A DNA stretch of 64,000 nt, from NCBI GenBank assembly GCA_024235615.1, contig JACKMB010000005.1:186001-250000 (forward strand), written 5' to 3'. A program made the translations under genes and the position numbers. The notes under the pieces were generated by a model that saw only the letters and a list, made by a program, of their open reading frames with translations, made no database searches and was not told the origin of the DNA. Positions within the stretch are counted from its first letter, which is position 1. Every line of letters starts with the position of its first letter. Positions 5,758 through 62,650 of the stretch are shown one piece after another. Source of the stretch: Thauera sp. (lineage in GTDB: Bacteria; Pseudomonadota; Gammaproteobacteria; Burkholderiales; Rhodocyclaceae).

Positions 5758-6957
5758 ATGACCACACCCACCAAACCCCTCGCCGGCATCAAGGTCGTCG
5801 AGCTCGGCACGCTCATCGCCGGCCCCTTCGCCGCGCGCATCCTCGCCGAGTTCGGCGCCGAGGTGATCAAGATCGAATCCCCCGACGGCGGCGACCCGTT
5901 GCGCAAGTGGCGCAAGCTCTACGAGGGCACCTCGCTGTGGTGGTACCTGCAGGCGCGCAACAAGAAGTCGGTGACGGTGAACCTGAAGCACCCGGACGGC
6001 GTCGAGGTGGTGCGCCGGCTGGTGGCCGAGGCCGACATCGTGGTGGAGAACTTCCGCCCCGGCGTGCTCGACAAGCTCGGCCTGGGCTGGGAGGCGCTGT
6101 CGAAGATCAACTCCGGCCTGGTCATGGTGCGCCTGTCGGGCTTCGGCCAGAGCGGGCCGATGGCGCAGCAGCCGGGCTTCGGCGCCATCGGCGAGTCGAT
6201 GGGCGGGCTGCGCTACGTGACCGGCTTTCCCGACCGCCCGCCGGTGAAGACCGGGATCTCGATCGGCGACTCGATCGCCGCGCTGTGGGGAGCGCTCGGC
6301 GCGCTGATGGCGCTGCGCCACAAGGAGGTCAATGGCGGCGCGGGCCAGGTGGTGGATGTCGCGCTCTACGAGGCGGTGTTCGCGATGATGGAGTCGCTGG
6401 TGCCGGAGTTCGACGTGTTCGGCTTCGTGCGCGAGCGCACCGGCAACATCATGCCGGGCATCACGCCGTCGAACACCCACACCACCCGCGACGGCCGCCA
6501 CATCACCATCGGTGCCAACGGCGACGCGATCTTCCGCCGCCTGATGCGCGCGATGGGCCGCGAGGACCTCGCCGAGGACCCGACGCTCGCCGACAACGCC
6601 GGCCGCGACGCGCGCCGCGACGAGTTGTACGCGCTCATCGACGCCTGGGTGGCGCAGCACGACGAGGCCGCGGTGCTGGCGACGCTGGCCGCCGCCGAGG
6701 TGCCGGCCTCGCGCATCTACTCGGTGGCCGACATGTTCGCCGATCCGCAATTCCTCGCCCGCGAGATGCTGCACACGGTGACGCTGCCCGACGGCCGCGA
6801 CTGCCGCATGCCGGGCGTGGTGCCCAGGCTGTCGGCCACGCCGGGCGGCAGCGAGTGGATCGGGCCGGCGCTGGGCGAACACACCGACGCGGTGCTGGCG
6901 GGGCTGGGTTACGACGAGGCCCGCATCGCCGCGCTGCGCGCGGCCGGCGCGATCTGA
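5758..6957 (+). CDS. Class III CoA-transferase (CaiB/BaiF family)
   Basis: The 399-residue protein is a family III CoA-transferase, which moves CoA between carboxylic acids through an aspartyl-CoA thioester. Family signatures include GIKVVELGTLIAGPFAARILAEFGAEVIKIE-like sequence at the N-terminus, VVENFRPG near residue 98 and SGFGQSGP near 127. D171 in SIGDSIAAL is the likely catalytic aspartate. The start is the ATG giving MTTPTKPLAG, which matches family starts. The 37-codon upstream extension is non-homologous. The substrate is unknown. The gene is alone on its strand, so context does not help. Confidence 0.9.
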   Translation: MTTPTKPLAGIKVVELGTLIAGPFAARILAEFGAEVIKIESPDGGDPLRKWRKLYEGTSLWWYLQARNKKSVTVNLKHPDGVEVVRRLVAEADIVVENFRPGVLDKLGLGWEALSKINSGLVMVRLSGFGQSGPMAQQPGFGAIGESMGGLRYVTGFPDRPPVKTGISIGDSIAALWGALGALMALRHKEVNGGAGQVVDVALYEAVFAMMESLVPEFDVFGFVRERTGNIMPGITPSNTHTTRDGRHITIGANGDAIFRRLMRAMGREDLAEDPTLADNAGRDARRDELYALIDAWVAQHDEAAVLATLAAAEVPASRIYSVADMFADPQFLAREMLHTVTLPDGRDCRMPGVVPRLSATPGGSEWIGPALGEHTDAVLAGLGYDEARIAALRAAGAI

Positions 6958-7087: not shown

Positions 7088-8272
7088 TCAAGCCTGGCGC
7101 GGCACCCGGCCGACCAGCCCCCAGGCCACCGCCGCGGTCGCCACGCTCCAGAACCACACGCCGTGGATCATCGGCAGCGACGTACCGTCCATGCTCGCGC
7201 CCAGCCACTGCCCCATCGCGAAGGCCACCACCATCATCACGAAGCCGCTCATCGCCGAGGCGGCGCCCGCCGCCTTCGGGAAGGGCCCGACCGCGCCCGC
7301 CTGGCCGCAGGGCTGGTGGATGCCATGCCCGAGCATGTAGATCAGCATCGGCAGCAGGATCGGCCACACCCCCTCCAGGCCGGCCATCCCGCCGAGCCCG
7401 AGCAGGCTGCCACCCAGCAGCGAGAACACGCCGCCGATCGCCACCGTGCGCTGCACCCCGAAGCGCACCAGCAGGCGCCGGCACAGCAGGGTCCCGCCCA
7501 CATAGGCCAGGACGATCACGAACATCAGCGCGGCATACTCGATGCGCGACAGCTCCATCAGGCGGATGAACACGAAGGACGAGGCCGCCAGCAGGGTGAA
7601 CAGGCCGCCGTAGGTCGCCGCGGCCAGCAGCGCGAAGGCGAGGAAGGTGGGGTTGCGCAGGATGGCGAGCCAGGTGCGCACCAGCGTGCCCGGGCGCAGC
7701 GCATCCGGATCGGGGCGCTGCAGCGTCTCCTCGAAGCGCAGCGCGATCAGCGCCAGCGTGGCGGCACCGAACAGCGCCGGCGCCGACAGCGCGATGCGCC
7801 AGCCGAAGAACTCCGCGAGCACGCCGCCGAGCGGGATGCTCAGGCAGGCGATCACGCCCAGCCCGGTGAGCCCCTTGCTGATCGCGCGCGCACCGAGCTC
7901 GGGACTGTAGAGGTCGCGCACCAGCGCACGCGCGCACATCACCGAGGCCCCCAGCGCCGCACCCTGGACGATCCGCCACAGCAGCAGCGCCTCCATCGAC
8001 CCAGCGAGCGCGCCGCCCACCGCCCCCACGACATAGGTCGCCAGCCCGAGCAGGAGCACCGGCCGGCGGCCGAAGCGGTCCGAGATCGGCCCCCACACCA
8101 GCTGCGACAGGCCGAAGGCGAGCAGCAGTCCGGACAGCGTGAGCTGCGCCTGGGCCACCGTGGCGCCGAGGTCCTGGGTGAGCGCGGGCAGCGCCGGCAG
8201 GTAGAGATCGGTGGTAACCGGCTGGAGGCCGAGCAGCAGCGACAGGACGAGGACGATGAAGGCGGTCGACAT
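7088..8272 (-). CDS. Bcr/CflA-type MFS drug exporter
   Basis: The 394-residue, twelve-helix major facilitator protein belongs to the DHA1 Bcr/CflA subfamily. It shows TDLYLPALP in helix 1, LVWGPISDRFGRRPVLLLG between helices 2 and 3, and ARALVRDLY after helix 4. It should export drugs or metabolites by proton antiport in the inner membrane. The start chosen (MSTAFIVLVLSLL) places helix 1 at the N-terminus. The longer frame upstream belongs to intergenic DNA. That gap of 166 bp holds an inverted repeat (GGGCGAA at 8324-8330, TTCGCCC at 8342-8348), which could terminate the catabolic operon or act as an operator. Confidence 0.85.
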   Translation of the reverse strand: MSTAFIVLVLSLLLGLQPVTTDLYLPALPALTQDLGATVAQAQLTLSGLLLAFGLSQLVWGPISDRFGRRPVLLLGLATYVVGAVGGALAGSMEALLLWRIVQGAALGASVMCARALVRDLYSPELGARAISKGLTGLGVIACLSIPLGGVLAEFFGWRIALSAPALFGAATLALIALRFEETLQRPDPDALRPGTLVRTWLAILRNPTFLAFALLAAATYGGLFTLLAASSFVFIRLMELSRIEYAALMFVIVLAYVGGTLLCRRLLVRFGVQRTVAIGGVFSLLGGSLLGLGGMAGLEGVWPILLPMLIYMLGHGIHQPCGQAGAVGPFPKAAGAASAMSGFVMMVVAFAMGQWLGASMDGTSLPMIHGVWFWSVATAAVAWGLVGRVPRQA

Positions 8273-8438: not shown

Positions 8439-9083
8439 TCACTCGGCGTCGGGCTGGGCCTCGGGCGCGGCGCGGCGGAAGGCCTCCAGGCCGGCGCAGC
8501 GGTCCGCGATGCGCAGCACCGTCGGCATCGCCGACAGCTCGCAGCCGAAGCGGCGGGCGTTGAAGACCTGCGGCACCAGGCAGCAGTCGGCCAGGCCGGG
8601 GGTGTCGCCGTGGCAGAACGCGCCGGTGCGCGCATCGCCGGCGAGCATCGCCTCGACCGCCTGCAGGCCGACGCCGATCCAGTGCCGGTACCAGGCGTTC
8701 TTCTGCGCCTCGCTCGCGCCGAGCTCGCGCGTGAGGTACTGCAGCACGCGCAGGTTGTTCACCGGGTGGATGTCGCAGGCGATCGCCTGCGCGATCGCGC
8801 GCACGCGGGCGCGGTCGAGCGCCGCGGCGGGCAGCAACGCGGGCTGCGGGTGGGTCTCCTCGAGATACTCGACGATCGCCAGCGACTGCGTCAGCACCTG
8901 GCCCGCATCCTCCAGCGCCGGCACCAGCCCGGCGGGGTTGAGCCCGAGGTAGGCCGGCTGGCGGTGCTCGCCGCCGCCGCGCACCAGGTGCACCGGCACG
9001 GCCTCGTAGTCCAGGCCCTTGAGGTGCAACGCGATGCGCACGCGATAGGCGGCGGAGCTGCGGAAATAGGTGTGGAGCTTCAT
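8439..9083 (-). CDS. maiA: Maleylacetoacetate/maleylpyruvate isomerase (zeta-class GST)
   Basis: The 214-residue protein has a thioredoxin-like N-terminal domain with the zeta-GST signature SSAAYRVRIAL (residues 9-19, with the active-site serines) and a helical C-terminal domain. Zeta-class enzymes use glutathione to isomerise the cis double bond of maleylacetoacetate or maleylpyruvate, the product of gentisate/homogentisate-type ring cleavage, to the fumaryl form. It is the last gene of the catabolic operon, 4 bp after the FAH gene, whose product would act next. Which of the two substrates it uses cannot be decided from sequence. Confidence 0.88.
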   Translation of the reverse strand: MKLHTYFRSSAAYRVRIALHLKGLDYEAVPVHLVRGGGEHRQPAYLGLNPAGLVPALEDAGQVLTQSLAIVEYLEETHPQPALLPAAALDRARVRAIAQAIACDIHPVNNLRVLQYLTRELGASEAQKNAWYRHWIGVGLQAVEAMLAGDARTGAFCHGDTPGLADCCLVPQVFNARRFGCELSAMPTVLRIADRCAGLEAFRRAAPEAQPDAE

Positions 9084-9087
9084 CCCC

Positions 9088-10098
9088 TCAGCCCTTGCGC
9101 GCCGCCACCCGGTTCTCGATGGTGCCGAAGACGCTGGCGCCCTGGCGGTCGAACATCTCGATGCGCACGACGTCGCCGTCGCGCATGAAGGGCGTGGCCG
9201 GCTTGCCCTGCTCGATGGTCTCGTAGGTGCGCACCTCGGCGAGGCAGCAGTAGCCGACGCCGCCGTGGTCGATGGACGACCCCCACAGGTCGCCCTGCTT
9301 GTTCGACACCGTGCCCGAGCCGATGATCGAGCCGGCCTCGAGCTCGCGCGTCTTCGCCACGTGGGCGACGAGTTGGCCGAAGTCGAAGGTCATGTCGACG
9401 CCGGCCTCGGGCTTGCCGAAGAGCTTGTCGTTGAGGTGCACCACCAGCGGCAGATGCACCTTGGCGTCCTGCCAGGCGTCGCCGAGTTCGTCGGGCGTGA
9501 CCGCCACCGGGCTGAAGGCCGAGGCCGGCTTGGACTGGAAGAAGCCGAAGCCCTTGGCGAGCTCGTTGGGGATGAGGTTGCGCAGGCTGACGTCGTTCAC
9601 CAGCATCACCAGGCGGATCGCCTTCGCCGCCTCGGCGGGGGTGGCGCCCATCGGCACGTCGCCGGTCACCACGGTGACCTCGGCCTCGAAGTCGATGCCC
9701 CAGGCCTCGTCGGCCACCACCGCGTCGCGCGGGCCGATGAAGCTGTCCGAGCCGCCCTGGTACATCAGCGGGTCGGTGTAGAACGAGGGCGGCATCTCGG
9801 CGTTGCGGGCCTTGCGCACCAGCTCGACGTGGTTGATGTAGGCCGAGCCGTCGGCCCACTGGTAGGCGCGCGGCAGCGGCGAGGCGCAGGCGGCCTGGTC
9901 GAAGGGCTGGGCGTCGACCGCGCCGCTGTTGAGCGCCTCGTACACCTGGCGCAGCTGCGGCTCGCAGGCCTGCCAGTCGTCGAGCGCGGCCTGCAGGCTG
10001 CGGGCGATCGCCGGCACGGCGCGGCAGCGGGCGAGGTCGCGGCTGACGACGACCAGGGTGCCGTCGCGGCCGCCTTGCTTGAGGGTGGCGAGTTTCAC
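9088..10098 (-). CDS. Fumarylacetoacetate hydrolase-family enzyme
   Basis: The 336-residue protein is an FAH-superfamily C-C bond hydrolase. The metal site is recognisable in DFEAEVTVV and VNDVSLRN, and the conserved SKPASAF and GSGTVSN segments follow. In this operon it should hydrolyse a fumaryl- or acylpyruvate-type ring-cleavage product to fumarate (or an analogue) plus a keto acid. Its ATG overlaps the VOC gene's stop codon (ATGA), and the isomerase gene follows after 4 bp. This fits translational coupling of ring cleavage, isomerisation and hydrolysis. The exact substrate is unknown. Confidence 0.88.
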   Translation of the reverse strand: MKLATLKQGGRDGTLVVVSRDLARCRAVPAIARSLQAALDDWQACEPQLRQVYEALNSGAVDAQPFDQAACASPLPRAYQWADGSAYINHVELVRKARNAEMPPSFYTDPLMYQGGSDSFIGPRDAVVADEAWGIDFEAEVTVVTGDVPMGATPAEAAKAIRLVMLVNDVSLRNLIPNELAKGFGFFQSKPASAFSPVAVTPDELGDAWQDAKVHLPLVVHLNDKLFGKPEAGVDMTFDFGQLVAHVAKTRELEAGSIIGSGTVSNKQGDLWGSSIDHGGVGYCCLAEVRTYETIEQGKPATPFMRDGDVVRIEMFDRQGASVFGTIENRVAARKG

Positions 10099-10646
10099 TG
10101 GAACATCTCCTTGTAGCTGCCGTCATGCATCCAGGCGGCGTGCTTGGGGGCCTTCTTCGTCTGCGCCCACTCCTCGAGCATGTCCCACTTGACCTTGTCG
10201 AGCGCCTCCAGCATGCCGGGTCGGTTCGTGTTGCAGGCGAGCTCGAGGCGGTGGCCGTTGGGATCGAAGAAGTAGATCGACTGGAAGAGGGCGTGGTCGG
10301 TGGGGCCGACGACCTGGATGCCCGCGGATTCGAGGCGGGCCTTGGCGGCGAGCAGGGTCTCCATCGAGTCGACCTCCAGCGCCAGGTGCTGGGTCCAGGC
10401 CGGGGTGTTCTCGTCGCGGCCCATCGGCGCGCGCGTGGGCAGCTCGAAGAAGGCGAGCACGTTGCCCATGCCGGCGTCCATGAAGATGTGCATGTAGGGG
10501 TCGGGCTCGCCGGTCGAGGGCACGGCGTCCTCGGCGATCGACAGCACGAGCTTCATGCCGAGGTGCTTCTCGTACCAGCGCGCGGTCTCGAGCGCGTCCT
10601 TGCAGCGGTAGGCGACGTGATGGATCTTCTTCACGATCGGGGTCAT
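10095..10646 (-). CDS. VOC-superfamily protein, candidate ring-cleavage dioxygenase
   Basis: The 183-residue protein has one vicinal-oxygen-chelate module pair. Likely metal ligands are the histidine of IHHVAYR, the histidine of TQHLALEV and the glutamate of HRLELAC. This His/His/Glu pattern suits an iron- or manganese-dependent type I extradiol dioxygenase but also occurs in glyoxalase-like enzymes. No cupin-type gentisate or homogentisate dioxygenase lies in the operon, so this is the only ring-cleavage candidate. PcpA and LinE show that VOC enzymes can cleave hydroquinones, but they are about twice as long. The start is the ATG giving MTPIVKKIHH, because the upstream frame is not homologous. 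Function is inferred from context. Confidence 0.72.
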   Translation of the reverse strand: MTPIVKKIHHVAYRCKDALETARWYEKHLGMKLVLSIAEDAVPSTGEPDPYMHIFMDAGMGNVLAFFELPTRAPMGRDENTPAWTQHLALEVDSMETLLAAKARLESAGIQVVGPTDHALFQSIYFFDPNGHRLELACNTNRPGMLEALDKVKWDMLEEWAQTKKAPKHAAWMHDGSYKEMFQ

Positions 10647-10798
10647 TGCGGTCTCCTCGTCCTTGTTCAGTGCCGTCGCGCCGTGGTGGCATTTCGGCCA
10701 GTTCACCGAGCGATACGGTCCGGGCATCATCATTGCAGCGATCTCGCTCGCTGCACATCCTCTGCGGCACGGCCGCCACGGGCCGGTTCGCGCGGTGC

Positions 10799-11035
10799 TC
10801 AATCCTTGCTCGCCACTCCTGCGCGCGCGATGCTCATCGCCTCGCGCAGCACCGAGATGTCGCCGATATGGTTGGCGAGCAGCAGGATCAGGCGGGCATT
10901 CACCATCTCGCTCTGCTCGTCGCTGAGCTCGCGGTGGGTCTCGATGAGGGCCTCGTAGAAATCGTCGCCGGGCGAGAAGGCGCGGAAGTAGCGCTTGCCG
11001 GGTTCGAACAGGTTGGGTTGGGTGTTCAGGGCCAT
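10799..11035 (-). CDS. DUF2783 small protein
   Basis: This 78-residue soluble protein (MALNTQPNLFEPGKRYFRAF and onward) resembles the DUF2783 family, which I know only as an uncharacterised family found beside FAD-dependent aromatic hydroxylases. It has no cysteine, histidine cluster or membrane segment. It lies 11 bp downstream of the FAD monooxygenase gene, behind the ribosome binding site AAGGAG, so it is probably cotranslated and could be a partner or stability factor of that enzyme. A 152-bp gap without recognisable features separates it from the VOC gene. Confidence 0.75.
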   Translation of the reverse strand: MALNTQPNLFEPGKRYFRAFSPGDDFYEALIETHRELSDEQSEMVNARLILLLANHIGDISVLREAMSIARAGVASKD

Positions 11036-11046
11036 GGCGATCTCCT

Positions 11047-12714
11047 TCAGGCGTTGCAGGTGGCGCGGGCGACTGCGGCGCGCACGCGGGCCGGGTCGAG
11101 GGCGCGCCAGCGCGCGGTGACGTGCTGGTCGGGGCGGACGAGGTAGGTGGTGCCGGGCTGCAGGTCGTAGCGCTCGCGGATGCGACCCTTGGCGTCGGTC
11201 AGGGTGCGCAGGCCGGCCGGGGCCTGGCCGCGCGCGGCGACCACAATCGGCTCGACCGGAATTGCGCCCTCGGCGAGCGACTGCAGCGCCGCCGCGCTCG
11301 CGGCGTCGAGGTCGGCCGCATCGGCGACGTAGTGCAGCACCTGGAAGCGGTCGCCGAGCGCCTGCAGCAGCCAGGACTCGCCGTCGGCGGTGGCGATCGG
11401 GGCGTCGTCCATCGGCGCGCCCGGGACCATGTTGCCGGCAAACACTGCGTCGTCGGCCGTATTGAGGCGCGAATCGACGAGGAAGCTCGGCACCGACAGG
11501 CGCCCGGAGTTGACCAGCGCGCGCGCGAAGGCGTGGTGCTCGGCGAGGCCCAGCACCGCGTTGCGGAAGGTCTTGCTGGTGCGACTCTTGGGGGTGATGA
11601 AGTCGGTCGAGCGCGTCGAGTTCATGATGTTCTCGTCGGCCGCGAAGCCGCGCTCGTCGCCGTAGGTGTCGAGCAGCGTGGCGGGGGCCTTGCCGTCCAT
11701 CACCAGCGCGAGCTTCCACACCAGGTTGTCGGCGTCCTGGATCCCGGAGTTGGCGCCGCGCGCGCCGAAGGGCGAGACCTGGTGCGCCGAGTCGCCGACG
11801 AAGAGCACGCGGCCATGGTTGAAGCGGTTCATGCGGCGGCACTGGAAGGTGTACACGCTGACCCACTCGAGCTCGAACTCGCGGTCGTCGCCGATCATCG
11901 CCTGGATGCGCGGGATCACGTTCTCGGGCTTCTTCTCGTGCTCCGGGTCGGCCTGCCAGCCGAGCTGGAAGTCGATGCGGAAGACGTTGTCGGCCTGGCG
12001 GTGCAGCAGCACCGACTGGTTGGGATGGAAGGGCGGGTCGAACCAGAACCAGCGCTCGGTGGGGAAGTCCGCCTTCATGACCACGTCGGCGATCAGGAAG
12101 CGGTCCATGAAGATCTTGCCGTCGATGTCCAGCCCGAGCATGGTGCGGATCGGGCTGCGCGCGCCGTCGGCGACCACCAGCCAGTCGGTGGTGAGCGTGT
12201 AGGTGCCGTCGGGCGTCTCCACGCGCAGGCTCGCCTGGTCCTCGCCGGGGGTGACCGCGATCACGCTGTTCCTGAAGCGCATCTCGAGGTTCGGGAGCTT
12301 GCGCGCGCGCTGCACCAGGTAGTCCTCGAGGTAGTACTGCTGCAGGTTGATCATGCCCGGGCGGTGGTGGTCGGGCTCGGGGCAGAGGTTGAAGTTGAAC
12401 ACCTCGTCCTCGCGGAAGAAGGTGCGGCCGACGTTCCACGACACGCCCTTCTGCACCATCTCCTCGCCGCAGCCGAGGCGGTCGAGCACCTCGAGCGTGC
12501 GCTTGGCGTAGCACACGCCACGCGAGCCGATGGACACGGTGTCGTCGTTGTCGAGCAGCAGCACCTGCCGGCCCTGGCGGGCGAGGTCGATCGCGGTGCA
12601 CAGGCCGACCGGGCCGGCGCCGACGATCACCACCGGGTAGTGGCCGTCGCGGCCTTCGTCGAGCTCGGGCGGACGGACGTAGTCGAACTTGGGGTATTGA
12701 TACGTGCTCAGCAC
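11047..12714 (-). CDS. FAD-dependent aromatic hydroxylase (MhpA/PheA-like)
   Basis: The 555-residue group A flavoprotein monooxygenase has the FAD dinucleotide motif VGAGPVGL (residues 31-38), the DG motif region VVADGARSP (about 185) and the second FAD motif FVGDSAHQVSPFGARG (about 325). A thioredoxin-like C-terminal extension, usual in MhpA-type enzymes, follows. It should use NAD(P)H and O2 to hydroxylate a phenolic acid, preparing it for ring cleavage. The GTG start (MLSTYQYPKF) is chosen because GGAGGAG lies 6 bases upstream. The longer reading frame adds 43 unlikely residues. The substrate is not deducible. Confidence 0.87.
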   Translation of the reverse strand: MLSTYQYPKFDYVRPPELDEGRDGHYPVVIVGAGPVGLCTAIDLARQGRQVLLLDNDDTVSIGSRGVCYAKRTLEVLDRLGCGEEMVQKGVSWNVGRTFFREDEVFNFNLCPEPDHHRPGMINLQQYYLEDYLVQRARKLPNLEMRFRNSVIAVTPGEDQASLRVETPDGTYTLTTDWLVVADGARSPIRTMLGLDIDGKIFMDRFLIADVVMKADFPTERWFWFDPPFHPNQSVLLHRQADNVFRIDFQLGWQADPEHEKKPENVIPRIQAMIGDDREFELEWVSVYTFQCRRMNRFNHGRVLFVGDSAHQVSPFGARGANSGIQDADNLVWKLALVMDGKAPATLLDTYGDERGFAADENIMNSTRSTDFITPKSRTSKTFRNAVLGLAEHHAFARALVNSGRLSVPSFLVDSRLNTADDAVFAGNMVPGAPMDDAPIATADGESWLLQALGDRFQVLHYVADAADLDAASAAALQSLAEGAIPVEPIVVAARGQAPAGLRTLTDAKGRIRERYDLQPGTTYLVRPDQHVTARWRALDPARVRAAVARATCNA

Positions 12715-12864
12715 GGCGGTCTCCTCCAGGATTGTTCGTGTGCACCGACGCTGCGTCTTGGCGCGCGGGCTACCGGTACGGGGCGCCGCGACGGGCGCCC
12801 GGCTCTGCTGGAAATCAGGGGTGCGAAAGGCGGGGCTCCACACGGGGCCCCGCGGATCGAGCGC

Positions 12865-13830
12865 TCAGCCCTGCTGCAGCGCGTGCCACATCTGCTGGTC
12901 GCGCTCGGCGGTCCAGATGCGCGGGTCGCGGATGCCGCTCGCCTCGTCGTGGGCGCGGGTGACGTCGAAGGGCAGGCAGTGCTCGTAGATGAAGACCTGG
13001 CCGAACTTCGGGTCCATGTTGGCGCGGGTGTGCGCCATCGTCGCCTTGAGGTCCATGCCCTTCGCGACCGCTTCCTGCGCGCTGCGATACAGGGTGGACA
13101 CGAAGTCGCGGGTGTAGGCGAGGCCGGCCTGCACCTTCTCGGGCGTCATCAGTGCCGGGCCGCGGCCGGGCACGAGCTTGGCGAAGTTCATCGCCGCCAG
13201 GTTGTCGAGGGTCTGCGGCCAGTCGGCGAGGTAGGCATCGCCGGTGTAGCAGGCGGCGTCGGCCTCGACCAGGTCGCCCGAGAAGCAGATGTCCTGCGCG
13301 GGCAGATAGACGATGGTGTCGCCCTTGGTGTGGCCGCGGCCGAGCTGCTTGATGCGCACCTCGAGCTTGCCCATCCACACGGTCATCTCGCCGCTGAAGG
13401 TCATGGTCGGCCAGGTCAGCCCGGGCACGCTCTCGACGGCCTGGAAGAGGCGCGGGAAACGGCCGATCTCGGAGTCCATGTCCTGCTGGCCGCGCTCGAC
13501 GATGAGGTCCCAGGTGTCCTTGCTGGCGATGATCTGCTCCAGGCCCTCGCCCTTGTAGCCCGAGGCGCCGAGCACGCGCACCGCGTGGTAGTGGGTCAGC
13601 ACGACGTACTTGATCGGCAGGTCGGTGATCTCGCGCACCTTGGCGATCACGCCCTGCGCGGCCACCGGGGTGGCGGTGGCATCGATGATCATCACGCCGT
13701 CGTCGCCGATGATCACGCCGGTGTTGGGGTCGCCCTCGGCGGTGTAGGCCCAGGCGTTGTCGGACAGCTTCTCCCAGCTGATCTGCTTCTCTTCGAGGTC
13801 GGCCTGGGAGGCGAATTTCTTGGTGCTCAT
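12865..13830 (-). CDS. Metallo-beta-lactamase-fold hydrolase with altered metal motif
   Basis: First gene of the catabolic operon, 321 residues. The MBL fold is clear: VMIIDATATP strand, THYH at 79-82, GRGHTKGDTIVYLP (H167) and FSGD (D186). The hallmark HxHxDH motif is H80-x-H82-x-V84-R85, so the aspartate and histidine of metal site 2 are replaced. The enzyme is probably mononuclear or uses different ligands. It may hydrolyse a thioester, lactone or ester upstream of ring hydroxylation. AGGAG lies 7 bases before the ATG, and a good sigma-70-like promoter lies 34 bp upstream. Fold call is secure and function unknown. Confidence 0.85.
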   Translation of the reverse strand: MSTKKFASQADLEEKQISWEKLSDNAWAYTAEGDPNTGVIIGDDGVMIIDATATPVAAQGVIAKVREITDLPIKYVVLTHYHAVRVLGASGYKGEGLEQIIASKDTWDLIVERGQQDMDSEIGRFPRLFQAVESVPGLTWPTMTFSGEMTVWMGKLEVRIKQLGRGHTKGDTIVYLPAQDICFSGDLVEADAACYTGDAYLADWPQTLDNLAAMNFAKLVPGRGPALMTPEKVQAGLAYTRDFVSTLYRSAQEAVAKGMDLKATMAHTRANMDPKFGQVFIYEHCLPFDVTRAHDEASGIRDPRIWTAERDQQMWHALQQG

Positions 13831-13973: not shown

Positions 13974-14801
13974 ATGCAGGACATCCCTAACCCATCCCCT
14001 TCGACCGTGCGCGACGCGGCCGATTCCGCCGGCGAGCGCCGCGGCATCCAGTCCATCGAGGTGGGCGGCAGCCTGCTGTCCGCCCTCGTGCGCGAGGGCA
14101 AGCCGATGATGCTGAAGGACCTCGCGCGCGAGGCCGGCATGCCGGCAGCCAAGGCGCACCCCTACCTGGTGAGCTTCGGCAAGCTCGGCCTGGTCGAGCA
14201 GGACGCGCTCACCGGCCGCTACGGCCTGGGTCCGTTCGCGCTGCAGATGGGCCTCACCGCGCTGCATGGCCTCGACCCGATCAAGGCGGCCCTGCCCGAG
14301 GCGGCCCGGCTCGCCGACGACATCGATCTCAACGTGGCGATCGCGGTGTGGGGCAACCACGGACCCACCGTTGTGCACATCGCCGAGTGCAGCCGCCAGA
14401 TCCACATCAACATGCGCCCGGGTACGGTGATGACCCCCCTGCTGCTGTCTGCCACCGGGCGCGTGTTCGCGGCCTTCCTGCCGCAGCGCATCGTCGCCCC
14501 CGTGCTCGCCGCCGAGGCGGTGGCGGTGAGCGCGCCGCCGCTGGAGATGTCTCCCGGCGACGTGCACGCGGTGCTCGACGAGATCCGCGCGCACCGCCTC
14601 GCGCGCGCGCTCGGCAATCCCATCCCGGGCATCCACGCGTTCTCCGCGCCGGTCTTCGACGCTGGCGGCCAGCTCGCGCTCGCGCTCACCGCGATGGGAC
14701 CGGTCGGCAGCGTCGATCCGGACTGGACGGGCGCCACCGCCAGCCGGGTGCGCGCGGCGGCGGATGCGATCGAGCGTCAGCTGGGCAAGCCGGCCGGCTG
14801 A
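13974..14801 (+). CDS. IclR-family transcriptional regulator
   Basis: The 275-residue protein has an N-terminal winged helix-turn-helix (about residues 25-85: LLSALVREGKPMMLKDLAREAGMPAAKAHPYLVSF) and a C-terminal IclR effector-binding domain (about 100-270) with LLLSATGRVFAAFLP and a GIHAFSAPVFD strand. IclR regulators often control adjacent aromatic catabolic operons in response to a pathway acid. The gene is divergent from the catabolic operon, sharing a 143-bp AT-rich control region, so local control of that operon and autoregulation are likely. The start is the ATG with GGAGAG 6 bases upstream. The longer frame from 13848 runs through the promoter. Confidence 0.9.
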   Translation: MQDIPNPSPSTVRDAADSAGERRGIQSIEVGGSLLSALVREGKPMMLKDLAREAGMPAAKAHPYLVSFGKLGLVEQDALTGRYGLGPFALQMGLTALHGLDPIKAALPEAARLADDIDLNVAIAVWGNHGPTVVHIAECSRQIHINMRPGTVMTPLLLSATGRVFAAFLPQRIVAPVLAAEAVAVSAPPLEMSPGDVHAVLDEIRAHRLARALGNPIPGIHAFSAPVFDAGGQLALALTAMGPVGSVDPDWTGATASRVRAAADAIERQLGKPAG

Positions 14802-14868: not shown

Positions 14869-15483
14869 ATGTCCAGCGAACGTTTCCCCGCCTTCTTCGA
14901 CCAGGTGCCGCGCCTCGTGGTGCGCGATCCGCTCGCCGAATTCCTCGGCGCCGCCGAGGGGGGTGTGCTCGAGTACGGCTACGCCGACGCGGTGCGCCTG
15001 GCCGGTCACTCCTGCCCGACCGTGGCCTCGGCCTACGCCCTCGCCCACCACGCGCTCACCCGGCTCTTCCCGGGCGAACTGCCGGTGCGCGGCATGGTGC
15101 AGGTGAGCTTCCAGCATCCGCTCGACGAAGGCGTGACCGGCGTCATCGCCGCGGTGGTCGGCCTGCTCAGCGGCAGCGCCCAGGACGGCGGCTTCAAGGG
15201 CATCGCCGGTCGTTTCGTGCGCCGCAACCTGCAGCACTTCGGCGAACACCAGCCGCTCGCGCTGCGCTTCGTCCGCAGCGACAGCGGCGCCACGGTGCAC
15301 GCCGCGGCCGAGCTGTCCAAGGTGCAGCCCCACCCCGAGATGGCCGAGCTGATGCGCCGCTGCATGCGCGACGAGGCCGCCCCCCCCGACGCACAGCGCT
15401 TCGCGCAGCTGTGGCAGGACCGCGTGCGGCGCGTGCTCGTCGAACACTGGGACGACCCCGAGGTGTTCCACCTCTCGGCCTGA
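14869..15483 (+). CDS. FmdE-like protein of unknown function
   Basis: The 204-residue soluble protein has a GHSCPTVASAYALAHHAL segment (H47, C49) that resembles the metal-binding GHxCPG motif of the FmdE domain, named after formylmethanofuran dehydrogenase subunit E. FmdE-like proteins are found in bacteria without methanofuran and are of unknown function, perhaps molybdenum- or zinc-linked. Only this one Cys/His motif is clear, and no C-terminal zinc ribbon is present. The gene follows iclR on the same strand (67 bp gap), and its stop codon is about 10 bp from the tandem repeat array. The family call is tentative. Confidence 0.55.
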   Translation: MSSERFPAFFDQVPRLVVRDPLAEFLGAAEGGVLEYGYADAVRLAGHSCPTVASAYALAHHALTRLFPGELPVRGMVQVSFQHPLDEGVTGVIAAVVGLLSGSAQDGGFKGIAGRFVRRNLQHFGEHQPLALRFVRSDSGATVHAAAELSKVQPHPEMAELMRRCMRDEAAPPDAQRFAQLWQDRVRRVLVEHWDDPEVFHLSA

Positions 15484-15492
15484 ATCGCGGGA

Positions 15493-16175
15493 CTGCGCGG
15501 CCCCGTTCGCGGCTGCCGCCGCTCCTACAAGGGCTTGCACAGGCGCGGTTTTCCGTAGGAGCGCCGGCAGGCGCGAATTCGGCGGTGGTCCGCGGCGCCC
15601 GCGTCGATCCCTGCACGGCCGTGTTCGCGGCTGCCGCCGCTCCTACAAGGGCTTGCACAGGCGCGGGTTTGTGTAGGCGCGCCGGCAGGCGCGAATTCGG
15701 CGGTGGTCCGCGGCGCCCGCGTCGATCCCTGCACGGCCCTGTTCGCGGCTGCCGCCGCTCCTACAAGGGCTTGCACAAGCGCGGTTTTCTGTAGGAGCGC
15801 CGGCAAGCGCGAATTCGGCGGTGGTCCGCGGCGCCCGCGGCGATCCCTGCACGGCCCCGTTCGCGGCTGCCGCCGCTCCTACAAGGGCTTGCACAGGCGC
15901 GGGTTCGTGTAGGAGCGCCGGCAGGCGCGAATTCGGCGGTGGTCCGCGGCGCCCGCGGCGATCCCTGCACGGCCGTGTTCGCGGCTGCCGCCGCTCCTAC
16001 AAGGGCTTGCACAGGCGCGGGTTTGTGTAGGAGCGCCGGCAGGCGCGAATTCGGCGGTGGTCCGTGGCGCCCGCGGCGATCCCTGCACGGCCCCGTTCGC
16101 GGCTGCCGCCGCTCCTACAAGGGCTTGCACAGGCGCGGTTTTGTGTAGGCGCGCCGGCAGGCGCGAATTCGGCGG
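15493..16175. repeat. 118-bp tandem repeat array, about 5.7 copies
   Basis: Unit starts at 15505, 15623, 15741, 15859, 15977 and 16095 are exactly 118 bp apart. The last copy is cut at 16175. Each unit holds one palindrome of each REP-like type in opposite orientation (GCGGCTGCCGCCGC then GCGCCGGCAGGCGCG), separated by about 25 bp (AAGGGCTTGCACAGGCGCGG), plus about 45 bp of spacer. Copies differ by only a few substitutions. The array fills the convergent gap between the FmdE-like and diguanylate cyclase genes. Open frames crossing it on both strands are artefacts, since 118 is not a multiple of three. Confidence 0.95.
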
Positions 16176-60306: not shown

Positions 60307-61671
60307 ATGGAAGCCACCCGCATCCTGCTCGACGCCGCCGACATCCCGACGCACTGGTACAACGTCGCCGCCGACCTGCCGACCCCGCTCGCGCCGCCGC
60401 TCGGCCCCGACGGCAAGCCGGCCACGCCCGAGCAGATGGGGGCCATCTTCCCGCCTGCGATCCTCGAGCAGGAGATGAGCGCGGAGCGCTGGATCGCCAT
60501 CCCGCAGGAGGTGCGCGAGATCTACCGCCTGTGGCGGCCCAGCCCGCTGTGTCGCGCAGTGCGCTTGGAGCAGGCGCTCGGCACCCCGGCGAAGATCTTC
60601 TTCAAGTACGAGGGCGTCTCGCCCGCCGGCTCGCACAAGCCCAACTCGGCGGTGCCGCAGGCCTTCTACAACAAGCAGGCCGGCATCAAGCGCCTGACCA
60701 CCGAGACCGGCGCCGGACAGTGGGGCTCGTCGATCGCCTTCGCCGGGCAGATGTTCGGGCTGGAGGTGCGCATCTACATGGTCAAGGTGAGCTACGACCA
60801 GAAGCCCTACCGTCGCCTGATGATGCAGACCTGGGGCGGAGAGGTCTTCGCCAGCCCCTCGCCGCACACCGAGACCGGCCGCCGCCTGCTCGCCGAGGAC
60901 TCGAACAACCCCGGCTCGCTCGGGATCGCCATCTCCGAGGCAGTGGAAGAGGCCGCCGGCCGCGCCGACACCAACTACACCCTCGGCTCGGTGCTCAACC
61001 ACGTGGTGCTGCACCAGAGCATCATCGGCCTGGAAGCAAAGAAGCAGCTCGACAAGGTCGGCCTTTACCCCGACGTCGTCATCGGCCCCTGCGGCGGCGG
61101 CTCCAGCTTCGCCGGCATCGCCTTCCCCTTCCTCGCCGACAAGGCCGCGGGCGACAAGCGCGCCGACAAGCTGCGCTGCGTGGCGGTGGAGCCGAGCTCC
61201 TGCCCGACGCTGACCAAGGGGCAGTACGCCTACGACTACGGCGACGCCTCCGGCTTCACCCCGCTGATGAAGATGTATACGCTGGGCCACGACTTCATGC
61301 CGCCCGGCATCCACGCCGGCGGACTGCGCTACCATGGCGACTCGCCGCTGGTGTCGAACCTGCTGCACGCCGGCCTCATCGAGGCCGCCGCCGTGCCGCA
61401 GCTGGCGACCTTCGATGCGGGCGTGCAGTTCGCGCGTGCCGAGGGCATCATCCCGGCGCCCGAGTCCTGCCACGCGATCCGCCAGGCCATCGACGAGGCG
61501 CTGGCCTGCAAGGCGAGCGGCGAGGCCAAGACCATCCTGTTCAACCTCACCGGCCACGGCCACTTCGACATGAGTTCGTACGAGCGCTATTTCTCGGGCA
61601 AGCTCGAGGACTTCGACTATCCGGCCGATGCGGTGGCGGCCTCGCTCGCCCACCTGCCCAAGGTCGGCTGA
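60307..61671 (+). CDS. TrpB2-type tryptophan synthase beta chain
   Basis: The 454-residue PLP enzyme matches the TrpB2 (TrpB-like) family, longer than the roughly 400-residue TrpB1. Its PLP lysine is K111 in AGSHKPNSA, and the phosphate-binding loop is [11 protein letters not shown] (about 258-268). It begins with the TrpB2-type [14 protein letters not shown] and carries the ETGAGQWG segment. No trpA or other trp gene is adjacent. It may act on free indole or salvage indole, as suggested for TrpB2. GGGAG precedes the ATG, 25 bp after coaX. Confidence 0.9.
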
Positions 61672-61732
61672 GCGACCCGCGGCCGCCGGCTCGTCCGGCG
61701 GCCTCACTGACCCCCCTGGCACGCGCCTCGGC

Positions 61733-62650
61733 ATGACGATCCTGCGCCTCCTGCTCATCCTGCTGCTGATCCTCAACGCCCTCGCCTTCGCGGCGATCGG
61801 CGGCTGGCTGGGTGGCGAGCCGGCGACGGGCGAGGCGGCGCGCATCGCCACCCAGCTGCACCCGGAACGCATCCGCCTGGCGAACGAGACCGGTGCCACC
61901 GGACTCGCGCCCGTCGCTGCCGAGCCGTCCTTGTCCTCCGCAGTCGTCACCCGCGCAGCCTCCGCGCCGGATACCCCGGCACCCGCGACAGCGGACGCCG
62001 CGACGGAAGACGCCCCCGCCCCGTCCACCGCACAGGACGCCACGCTGCCCGCGGCCCGCGTCGACGCCGAGTCGTCCCCACTCCCGGCGCCCGAGATCGC
62101 GCCCCCGGTCGAGCCTGCCCCTGCCGAGCCCGCCCCCACCGAGCCTGCCCCTGCCGAGCCCCCACCCGCCGAGCCGGCCGTGGTTCCCGCCCCCTCGCCG
62201 GCGCCGCCCGCACTCTGCCATGCGTGGGCCGACCTCAGCGCCAGCGAGGCCGACCGCCTCGTCCAGCGCCTGCGCCGCATCGGCATCACCGCGGCGCGCA
62301 GCCGCAGCGAGACGCCCGAGGCCTGGTGGGTGCGCATCCCGCCGCAACGCAACCGCGGCGAGGCCGAGCGTCGCGTCGTCGAACTCAACCTGCTCGGCGT
62401 CAGCGACACCTTCATCGTTCAGGAGTCCGGCCCCAACCAGAACGCGGTCTCGCTCGGCCTCTTCAAGACCGAGAACCGCGCCCGCATCCTGCTCGGCCAG
62501 CTACGCGCCAAGGGCGTCGAGAATGCGGGCATCGAGCCGCGCATGAGCACGAGCTACCGCATCCAGGCCAACGTCCCGGCCAACGAGCTGCGCATCGTCG
62601 AGTCGGCCGCGCCCGGGCTGCGCGCCAAGCGCCAGGCCTGCACGCGCTGA
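61733..62650 (+). CDS. SPOR-domain cell-envelope protein
   Basis: The 305-residue protein has an N-terminal TM helix (about 4-25, ILRLLLILLLILNALAFAAIGG), a long Ala/Pro/Glu-rich periplasmic linker (about 60-165, with repeated PAPAEPAP units) and a C-terminal SPOR-like domain (about 205-285). SPOR domains bind denuded peptidoglycan strands at the division septum. Such SPOR proteins often lie next to birA-coaX in betaproteobacteria. The start is placed at MTILRLLL, before the membrane helix. The longer frame is not coding. Confidence 0.82.
   Translation: MTILRLLLILLLILNALAFAAIGGWLGGEPATGEAARIATQLHPERIRLANETGATGLAPVAAEPSLSSAVVTRAASAPDTPAPATADAATEDAPAPSTAQDATLPAARVDAESSPLPAPEIAPPVEPAPAEPAPTEPAPAEPPPAEPAVVPAPSPAPPALCHAWADLSASEADRLVQRLRRIGITAARSRSETPEAWWVRIPPQRNRGEAERRVVELNLLGVSDTFIVQESGPNQNAVSLGLFKTENRARILLGQLRAKGVENAGIEPRMSTSYRIQANVPANELRIVESAAPGLRAKRQACTR

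Follow-up and report, generated by a model that had tools for sequence, protein, structure and literature searches.

Which enzyme opens the aromatic ring in a catabolic operon that carries the two last enzymes of the gentisate and homogentisate routes but no cupin dioxygenase of either? This question was raised by a 64,000-nucleotide stretch of a Thauera sp. genome (assembly GCA_024235615.1, contig JACKMB010000005.1, positions 186,001 to 250,000 of the forward strand), hereafter the window. Six minus-strand genes between positions 8439 and 13830 encode an MBL-fold protein, an FAD monooxygenase, a DUF2783 protein, a VOC protein, a fumarylacetoacetate hydrolase (FAH), and a maleylacetoacetate isomerase (MAI). 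Their positions and order, first proposed from the sequence alone (the original prediction), were all confirmed by coordinates and family profiles, and the proposed order of hydroxylation, cleavage, isomerisation, and hydrolysis holds. The VOC protein is very probably the homogentisate-cleaving enzyme of the operon, at a probability of about 0.87, a figure that excludes the question of which substrate isomer the hydroxylase accepts. The VOC step is assigned because the title of a homologue structure, an exchange of gene slots, complementarity among genomes, and published mutant genetics all point to it.

The VOC gene (10095..10646, minus strand, PF00903) encodes the predicted single VOC protein of 183 aa, the proposed homogentisate 1,2-dioxygenase. 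The predicted His/His/Glu ligands, H11, H88, and E136 (P0001 numbering), were invariant by sequence in 32 of 32 aligned homologues (alignment A2, with L109 left out for a stop inside its stated frame), and these residues presumably form a 2-His-1-Glu metal site. The closest solved structure was 9U42 (phmmer E 1.3e-69 over residues 2-176; profile E 1.1e-87). A model of the VOC protein built from 32 homologues (mean pLDDT 84.6) also had 9U42 as its top PDB match in Foldseek (60% identity, E 1.3e-24, TM 0.81/0.88), and the remaining 49 PDB rows shown by that search were 18-27% identical. The entry, released 2025-07-23, is titled "Crystal Structure of Homogentisate 1,2-Dioxygenase from Acinetobacter in Complex with Zn ion", and its protein resembles the window VOC protein in its single-domain fold and in sequence over nearly the full length. 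Furthermore, the Acinetobacter homologue in locus L036 adjoins maiA and fahA, as the window gene adjoins those for MAI and FAH. The A. baumannii cluster contains hppD, whereas the window VOC gene instead follows the FAD hydroxylase and DUF2783 genes in a genome without HPPD. The hydroquinone dioxygenases PcpA and LinE are likewise VOC-fold ring cleavers. The single-domain L-DOPA dioxygenase (6ON1/6ON3), another VOC-fold ring cleaver, was among the Foldseek hits with 19-22% identity. The accessible part of PMC7118221 describes VOC extradiol dioxygenases that lack an assigned function, one of them from A. baylyi; this group may or may not be the window VOC family.

The genome searched is 4.0 Mb long and 99.97% complete. 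Family searches found no match to TIGR01015 (cupin hmgA) or TIGR02272 (gentisate dioxygenase) anywhere in it, so that the predicted absence of a cupin gentisate or homogentisate dioxygenase was borne out genome-wide. Nor was there a TIGR01263 HPPD match at E 0.001, and the operon pathway is therefore not fed here by tyrosine through HPPD. The prediction of a single candidate for ring cleavage, the VOC gene, stood for the operon itself but not for the genome, where it is one of nine PF00903 matches. Paired PF00903 matches were observed on contig C2 near 61139-61915 and 77654-78430, in open frames 328 and 332 aa long that may encode two-domain extradiol dioxygenases.

HmgA has a cupin fold. It belongs to a different family from the window VOC protein and is absent from the window genome, yet elsewhere it occupies the same slot, with the same inferred reaction and, in five regions, the same hydroxylase module. 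Twenty hmgA regions were fetched, hand-picked and not random, from the 49 hmgA genomes of a sample of the order. The FAD monooxygenase was present in five of them (L161, L162, L164, L168, and L171), of which four had DUF2783 by phmmer and three had the MBL gene; in L164 the DUF2783 match and the monooxygenase shared one open frame. The gene order in L171 is IclR, MBL, FAD monooxygenase, DUF2783, cupin hmgA, FahA, that is, the window order with hmgA in the VOC slot, and its hydroxylase is 60% identical to the window enzyme over 553 aa, with 56% identity between the DUF2783 proteins. The original prediction was right in putting the VOC protein where the cupin dioxygenase is missing. In L161 hmgA directly follows DUF2783, and more than 1 kb separates the two in L162 and L168. 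The other 15 regions had no such hydroxylase module at the phmmer thresholds used. Under the best explanation, cupin HmgA would have been replaced by a non-orthologous enzyme, the VOC protein.

The VOC gene and hmgA also showed complementarity across genomes. In the order sample, evenly drawn and comprising 250 genomes, HPPD exceeded its cut-off in 77 and hmgA in 48, plus one partial hmgA below the cut-off (G527) that was counted; VOC genes were accepted at E 5.1e-70 or better. The 77 HPPD genomes divided into 33 with hmgA only, 22 with VOC only, six with both, and 16 with neither. The VOC gene thus occurred in 22 of 38 HPPD genomes without hmgA versus 6 of 39 with hmgA (Fisher p 1.3e-4, kinship ignored). 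Counted by genus (45 genera), 19 had hmgA only, 10 VOC only, five both, and eight neither, and three were mixed. Another set comprised 51 genomes selected as VOC-positive, namely 42 from the 80 related loci described below (mostly longer contigs), eight hits from a class-wide sample, and the window genome, with the weak class hits G110 and G207 left out. HPPD was over the cut-off in 39 of these and hmgA in four, and 36 of the 39 HPPD genomes lacked hmgA. Within Thauera, a close VOC gene (at least 87% identity) was found in 17 of 29 genomes and hmgA in one, which had no VOC gene; all six Thauera genomes with HPPD over the cut-off had VOC and none had hmgA. In the class-wide sample, VOC matches at E 1e-30 occurred in 11 of 281 genomes, the window genome included.

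The related loci were the best 80 of at least 585 confirmed and thus lean to close relatives; the closest named ones among them were from Thauera. Neighbours were called by phmmer with self-chosen bit thresholds, and the counts are lower bounds because several loci have short flanks. The FAD monooxygenase was present on the VOC strand in 38 of the 80 loci and the MBL gene, likewise on that strand, in 25; FAH was present in 54 loci and MAI in 30. The gene arrangement is not due to chance because it recurs among these named relatives, and the check for co-occurrence of VOC, DUF2783, and FAD genes, proposed with the original prediction, turned out positive, with DUF2783 in 31 of the 38 monooxygenase loci. 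The hppD gene was found in nine loci, eight times on the VOC strand, and cupin hmgA in none within the available flanks. In a plasmid collection, 38 records had a match and 10 were inspected; among these, A. baumannii L036 contained fahA-maiA-VOC-IclR with hppD on the opposite strand and an amino acid permease nearby, and Ideonella L034 contained hppD-VOC-fahA. On a quick tree of 90 VOC rows, with good support for 10 of 87 inner branches only, the 11 hppD rows required 9 changes versus a shuffled mean of 10.6 (39 of 500 shuffles as low), and the hydroxylase rows were clustered (19 changes versus 29.8; 0 of 500 as low). The hppD rows are scattered among the others, which fits a single activity that serves both contexts.

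The FAH gene (9088..10098, minus strand; PF18288 and PF01557) encodes the short two-domain form and scored 19.5 bits against the long-form fumarylacetoacetase model TIGR01266, not reaching the cut-off of 375.3. The MAI gene (8439..9083, minus strand) encodes a zeta GST that matched TIGR01262 maiA with 304.5 bits (cut-off 171). The VOC and FAH genes share 4 bp, and 4 bp separate FAH from MAI. Acetoacetate arises from fumarylacetoacetate and not from fumarylpyruvate, and the gentisate route yields pyruvate; for this reason an acetoacetate-CoA ligase near the VOC gene favours homogentisate over gentisate. Such a ligase was encoded on the VOC strand in eight of the 80 loci, four of which carry the hydroxylase module (L053, L057, L066, and L074). 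It was identified by TIGR01217 over the cut-off in L061 and L066 and by phmmer in the other loci, with a query taken from L066, itself among the loci counted. In Thauera, 6 of 17 VOC genomes (G002, G004, G009, G014, G020, and G028) had the ligase within 10 kb of the VOC gene and on its strand.

The upper step would be carried out by the FAD monooxygenase (11047..12714, minus strand, 555 aa; PF01494, and PRK08132 (NF006002) with 865.5 bits at a cut-off of 416), which starts with GTG, with GGAGGAG ahead of the start. The gene for a DUF2783 protein of 78 aa (10799..11035, minus strand; PF10932, 103.6 bits) follows after 11 bp, and about 150 bp lie between MBL and the monooxygenase and again between DUF2783 and VOC. 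This is the layout of MhaAB of P. putida U, which, in the accessible part of PMC3053370, comprises a flavoprotein of 566 aa and the coupling protein MhaB of 60 aa and converts 3-hydroxyphenylacetate (3-HPA) to homogentisate. In P. xenovorans LB400, BxeA2727-2723 encode a flavin hydroxylase, a small partner, a ring-cleaving dioxygenase, FAH, and MAI, in the same order as in the window (accessible parts of PMC3053370 and PMC10983741). Characterised mhaAB-hmgABC clusters, comparison with which had been suggested at the outset, match the window in layout except that they have HmgA as ring cleaver and an MhaB of 60 aa, whereas the window has the VOC protein, a DUF2783 protein of 78 aa, and an extra MBL gene. 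Two LB400 hmgA1 primers matched 0 of 173 loci. According to the accessible part of PMC10983741, MhaA was raised in LB400 on both 3-HPA and 4-hydroxyphenylacetate (4-HPA), without statistical significance.

All 38 hydroxylase loci among the 80 had a small partner, which was DUF2783 in 31 and a protein of 62-66 aa in seven, the latter found by a pattern written after some had been seen. The small partner of Acinetobacter L031 has 61 aa and matched no Pfam family. Profile comparison of DUF2783 with the 61-66 aa partners gave probabilities of 7% for the main DUF2783 set and 72% for a shorter set, which is suggestive at most. By analogy, the DUF2783 protein is proposed to assist the hydroxylase as a small coupling protein of the MhaB kind. 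The accessible literature on DUF2783 yielded just a paper on NnrR in Bradyrhizobium. The remaining gene of the six encodes the MBL-fold protein (12865..13830, minus strand, PF00753). MBL-fold proteins usually carry the motifs HxHxDH and PGHG. The window protein has HYHAVR at the metal motif instead of HxHxDH and PGRG near the last ligand, and HYHAVR was found in 25 of 27 homologues (first-match pattern). The gene accompanied the hydroxylase on the VOC strand in 24 of the 38 hydroxylase loci and also occurs with cupin hmgA; an MBL-fold family with HYHAVR is thus linked to the FAD hydroxylase module.

Published pigment genetics of Acinetobacter bear on the VOC gene as well. In the accessible part of PMC9431530, 'hmgA' of a pigmented, pyomelanin-forming A. 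baumannii was interrupted by Tn2006, and the pigment disappeared when hmgA was supplied. The paper states a target site of 11 bp yet gives it as CATTTTTTT, which has nine letters. In the fahA-hppD stretch of another A. baumannii (L036), CATTTTTTT occurred once, at 6067-6075, inside the VOC gene (5992-6540), from which we infer that the 'hmgA' of that partly accessible paper is the VOC gene. In addition, the accessible parts of two other papers list A1S_3416, a glyoxalase/dioxygenase, as hmgA (PMC7273844) and link pigment to an IS element that lies upstream of the gene for fumarylacetoacetase (PMC11945678).

Several observations weigh against the assignment of homogentisate cleavage to the VOC protein. 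The title of 9U42 is the depositors' own statement, the molecule is named only 'Glyoxalase', the metal is Zn, and no paper naming the entry was found in a literature search that left most subscription papers outside its reach. E69 of the VOC protein aligns with the fourth ligand position of glyoxalase I, in that H11, E69, H88, and E136 align with the four metal-ligand positions of the E. coli enzyme. The window genome encodes further VOC proteins besides that of the operon, and its acetoacetate-CoA ligase lies on another contig and not in the operon. Four of the 51 VOC-positive genomes carry hmgA as well. This set partly overlaps with the order sample (G320 and G454 give one hmgA place), and related genomes are not independent. 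In locus L154 (G591 contig 44), a single cluster holds both VOC and cupin hmgA, with about 1.5 kb between them; the replacement is therefore not always complete, and L154 is possibly an intermediate state of it. Of the 77 HPPD genomes, the 16 with neither hmgA nor a close VOC gene include four with a weaker VOC match (42-46%); these 16 genomes may have a third homogentisate dioxygenase or may form pyomelanin. As for the Acinetobacter genetics, CATTTTTTT is short, with three matches in the 15.5 kb of L036 where 1.64 were expected (42 of 200 shuffles gave at least three), and the gene sequence is not given in the accessible text of PMC9431530. Moreover, PMC7646211, in its accessible part, finds no hmgA homologue in A. 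baumannii and regards the gene in its place as distantly homologous and as probably lacking dioxygenase activity.

Part of this evidence could be accommodated if the VOC protein were a glyoxalase-type isomerase or a detoxifying protein and another, unrecognised enzyme cleaved the ring. The conservation of all four glyoxalase I ligand positions, E69 included, the Zn in 9U42, and the other VOC genes in the genome would agree with this. However, the VOC protein scored 21.7 bits against the glyoxalase I model TIGR00068, under the cut-off of 120, MAI already covers the cis-trans isomerase step, and the genome contains no hmgA or gentisate dioxygenase to which cleavage could be assigned. Among HPPD genomes, VOC presence tracks hmgA absence, and pyomelanin after the 'hmgA' interruption fits a loss of ring cleavage if the interrupted gene of the partly accessible PMC9431530 is the VOC gene. 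A plain glyoxalase reading of the VOC protein is unlikely, although its sequence, with E69 retained, would be compatible with one, and a separate, unrecognised ring cleaver is the most remote of the explanations weighed here. It is somewhat less far-fetched, though still improbable, that the VOC protein cleaves another para-diol made by the FAD hydroxylase, such as gentisate or a substituted hydroquinone, in a parallel undescribed pathway. The window genome lacks HPPD, and the wider family may have other substrates, since distant VOC relatives (41-49% identity; L033, L037, and L038) lie near alpha/beta hydrolases and no FAH or MAI was found in L038. On the other hand, the tree of the close family intermingles the hppD and hydroxylase contexts, the hydroxylase module is also seen beside cupin hmgA, and the acetoacetate-CoA ligase of related operons implies an acetoacetyl product where gentisate would give pyruvate. 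An undescribed gentisate-like pathway as the principal explanation was set aside on the slot exchange and the ligase. The original prediction that the substrate is unknown and the pathway may be undescribed was not supported: the slot exchange, the hppD neighbours, the ligase, the complementarity with hmgA, and the title of 9U42 point to homogentisate and its known pathway. In Variovorax L038, positions 8959-12512 encode a VOC protein (49%), an alpha/beta hydrolase, an FAD monooxygenase, and DUF2783; by gene content this would be a related operon whose lower pathway differs.

With the VOC protein as the homogentisate-cleaving enzyme, more than one substrate is possible for the hydroxylase. The enzyme may be specific for 4-HPA, as a 1-hydroxylase with side-chain shift, and not for 3-HPA. 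Azoarcus evansii and Pseudomonas acidovorans are reported to form homogentisate from 4-HPA by such a 1-hydroxylation (accessible part of PMC3053370), and the group of the window enzyme is separate from the group with the 62-66 aa partner, which is nearer to the 60 aa of MhaB. This is a tentative possibility, less favoured than 3-HPA, because MhaAB of P. putida U uses 3-HPA and the LB400 cluster mhaA-mhaB-hmgA1-hmgB1-hmgC1 has the same order as the window (accessible part of PMC3053370). The operon would degrade a monohydroxyphenylacetate through homogentisate, with 3-HPA somewhat favoured and 4-HPA or 2-hydroxyphenylacetate possible. The FAD hydroxylase and its DUF2783 partner would add the second hydroxyl to form homogentisate, and the VOC protein, presumably with Fe(II) on H11, H88, and E136, would add O2 to give maleylacetoacetate. 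As established for these families, MAI would then form fumarylacetoacetate, which FAH would split into fumarate and acetoacetate.

The operon is flanked by a likely regulator and a transporter. An IclR-family protein (13974..14801, plus strand; PF01614 and PF09339), divergent from the operon and probably its regulator, scored 70.2 bits against TIGR02431, under the cut-off of 284.75. It is HmgR-like in position, HmgR of P. putida U being likewise IclR-type and divergent (accessible part of PMC3053370). A gene for a Bcr/CflA-type MFS transporter (7088..8272, minus strand; PF07690) lies 166 bp after MAI and is possibly part of the operon; homologues occurred near the VOC gene in four of the 80 loci (L051, L055, L066, and L074), with a query that was also taken from L066. 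Next to the IclR gene, window positions 14869-15483 encode an FmdE-family protein (PF02663, 25.5 bits), and just past it a tandem array extends over 15493-16175 (118 bp unit, 5.8 copies, 95% matches).

The pathway has been described before, and a single titled structure exists for the VOC-type enzyme. In the literature search described above, the hydroxylase-DUF2783 operon with a VOC enzyme, the wide occurrence of VOC, and the complementarity with hmgA were not found, most subscription papers being outside its reach. A broader proposal would be that VOC homogentisate dioxygenase is a major, largely unrecognised HmgA alternative in beta- and gammaproteobacteria that explains most genomes which form homogentisate yet seem to be without the dioxygenase, and also that the MBL-linked hydroxylase with DUF2783 is the 4-HPA 1-hydroxylase, while the MBL protein with HYHAVR carries out a new step such as opening a lactone of homogentisate or its precursor; taken jointly, these claims are unlikely to hold. 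Alkaptonuria and pyomelanin formation in bacteria both reflect a loss of homogentisate cleavage, and the enzyme of this step is usually assumed to be HmgA. If the assignment of the VOC protein is true, the statement in the accessible part of PMC7646211 that the Acinetobacter version probably lacks dioxygenase activity would need revision, DUF2783 would gain a likely role as hydroxylase partner, and many genomes that seem defective in tyrosine or hydroxyphenylacetate breakdown would in fact be complete.

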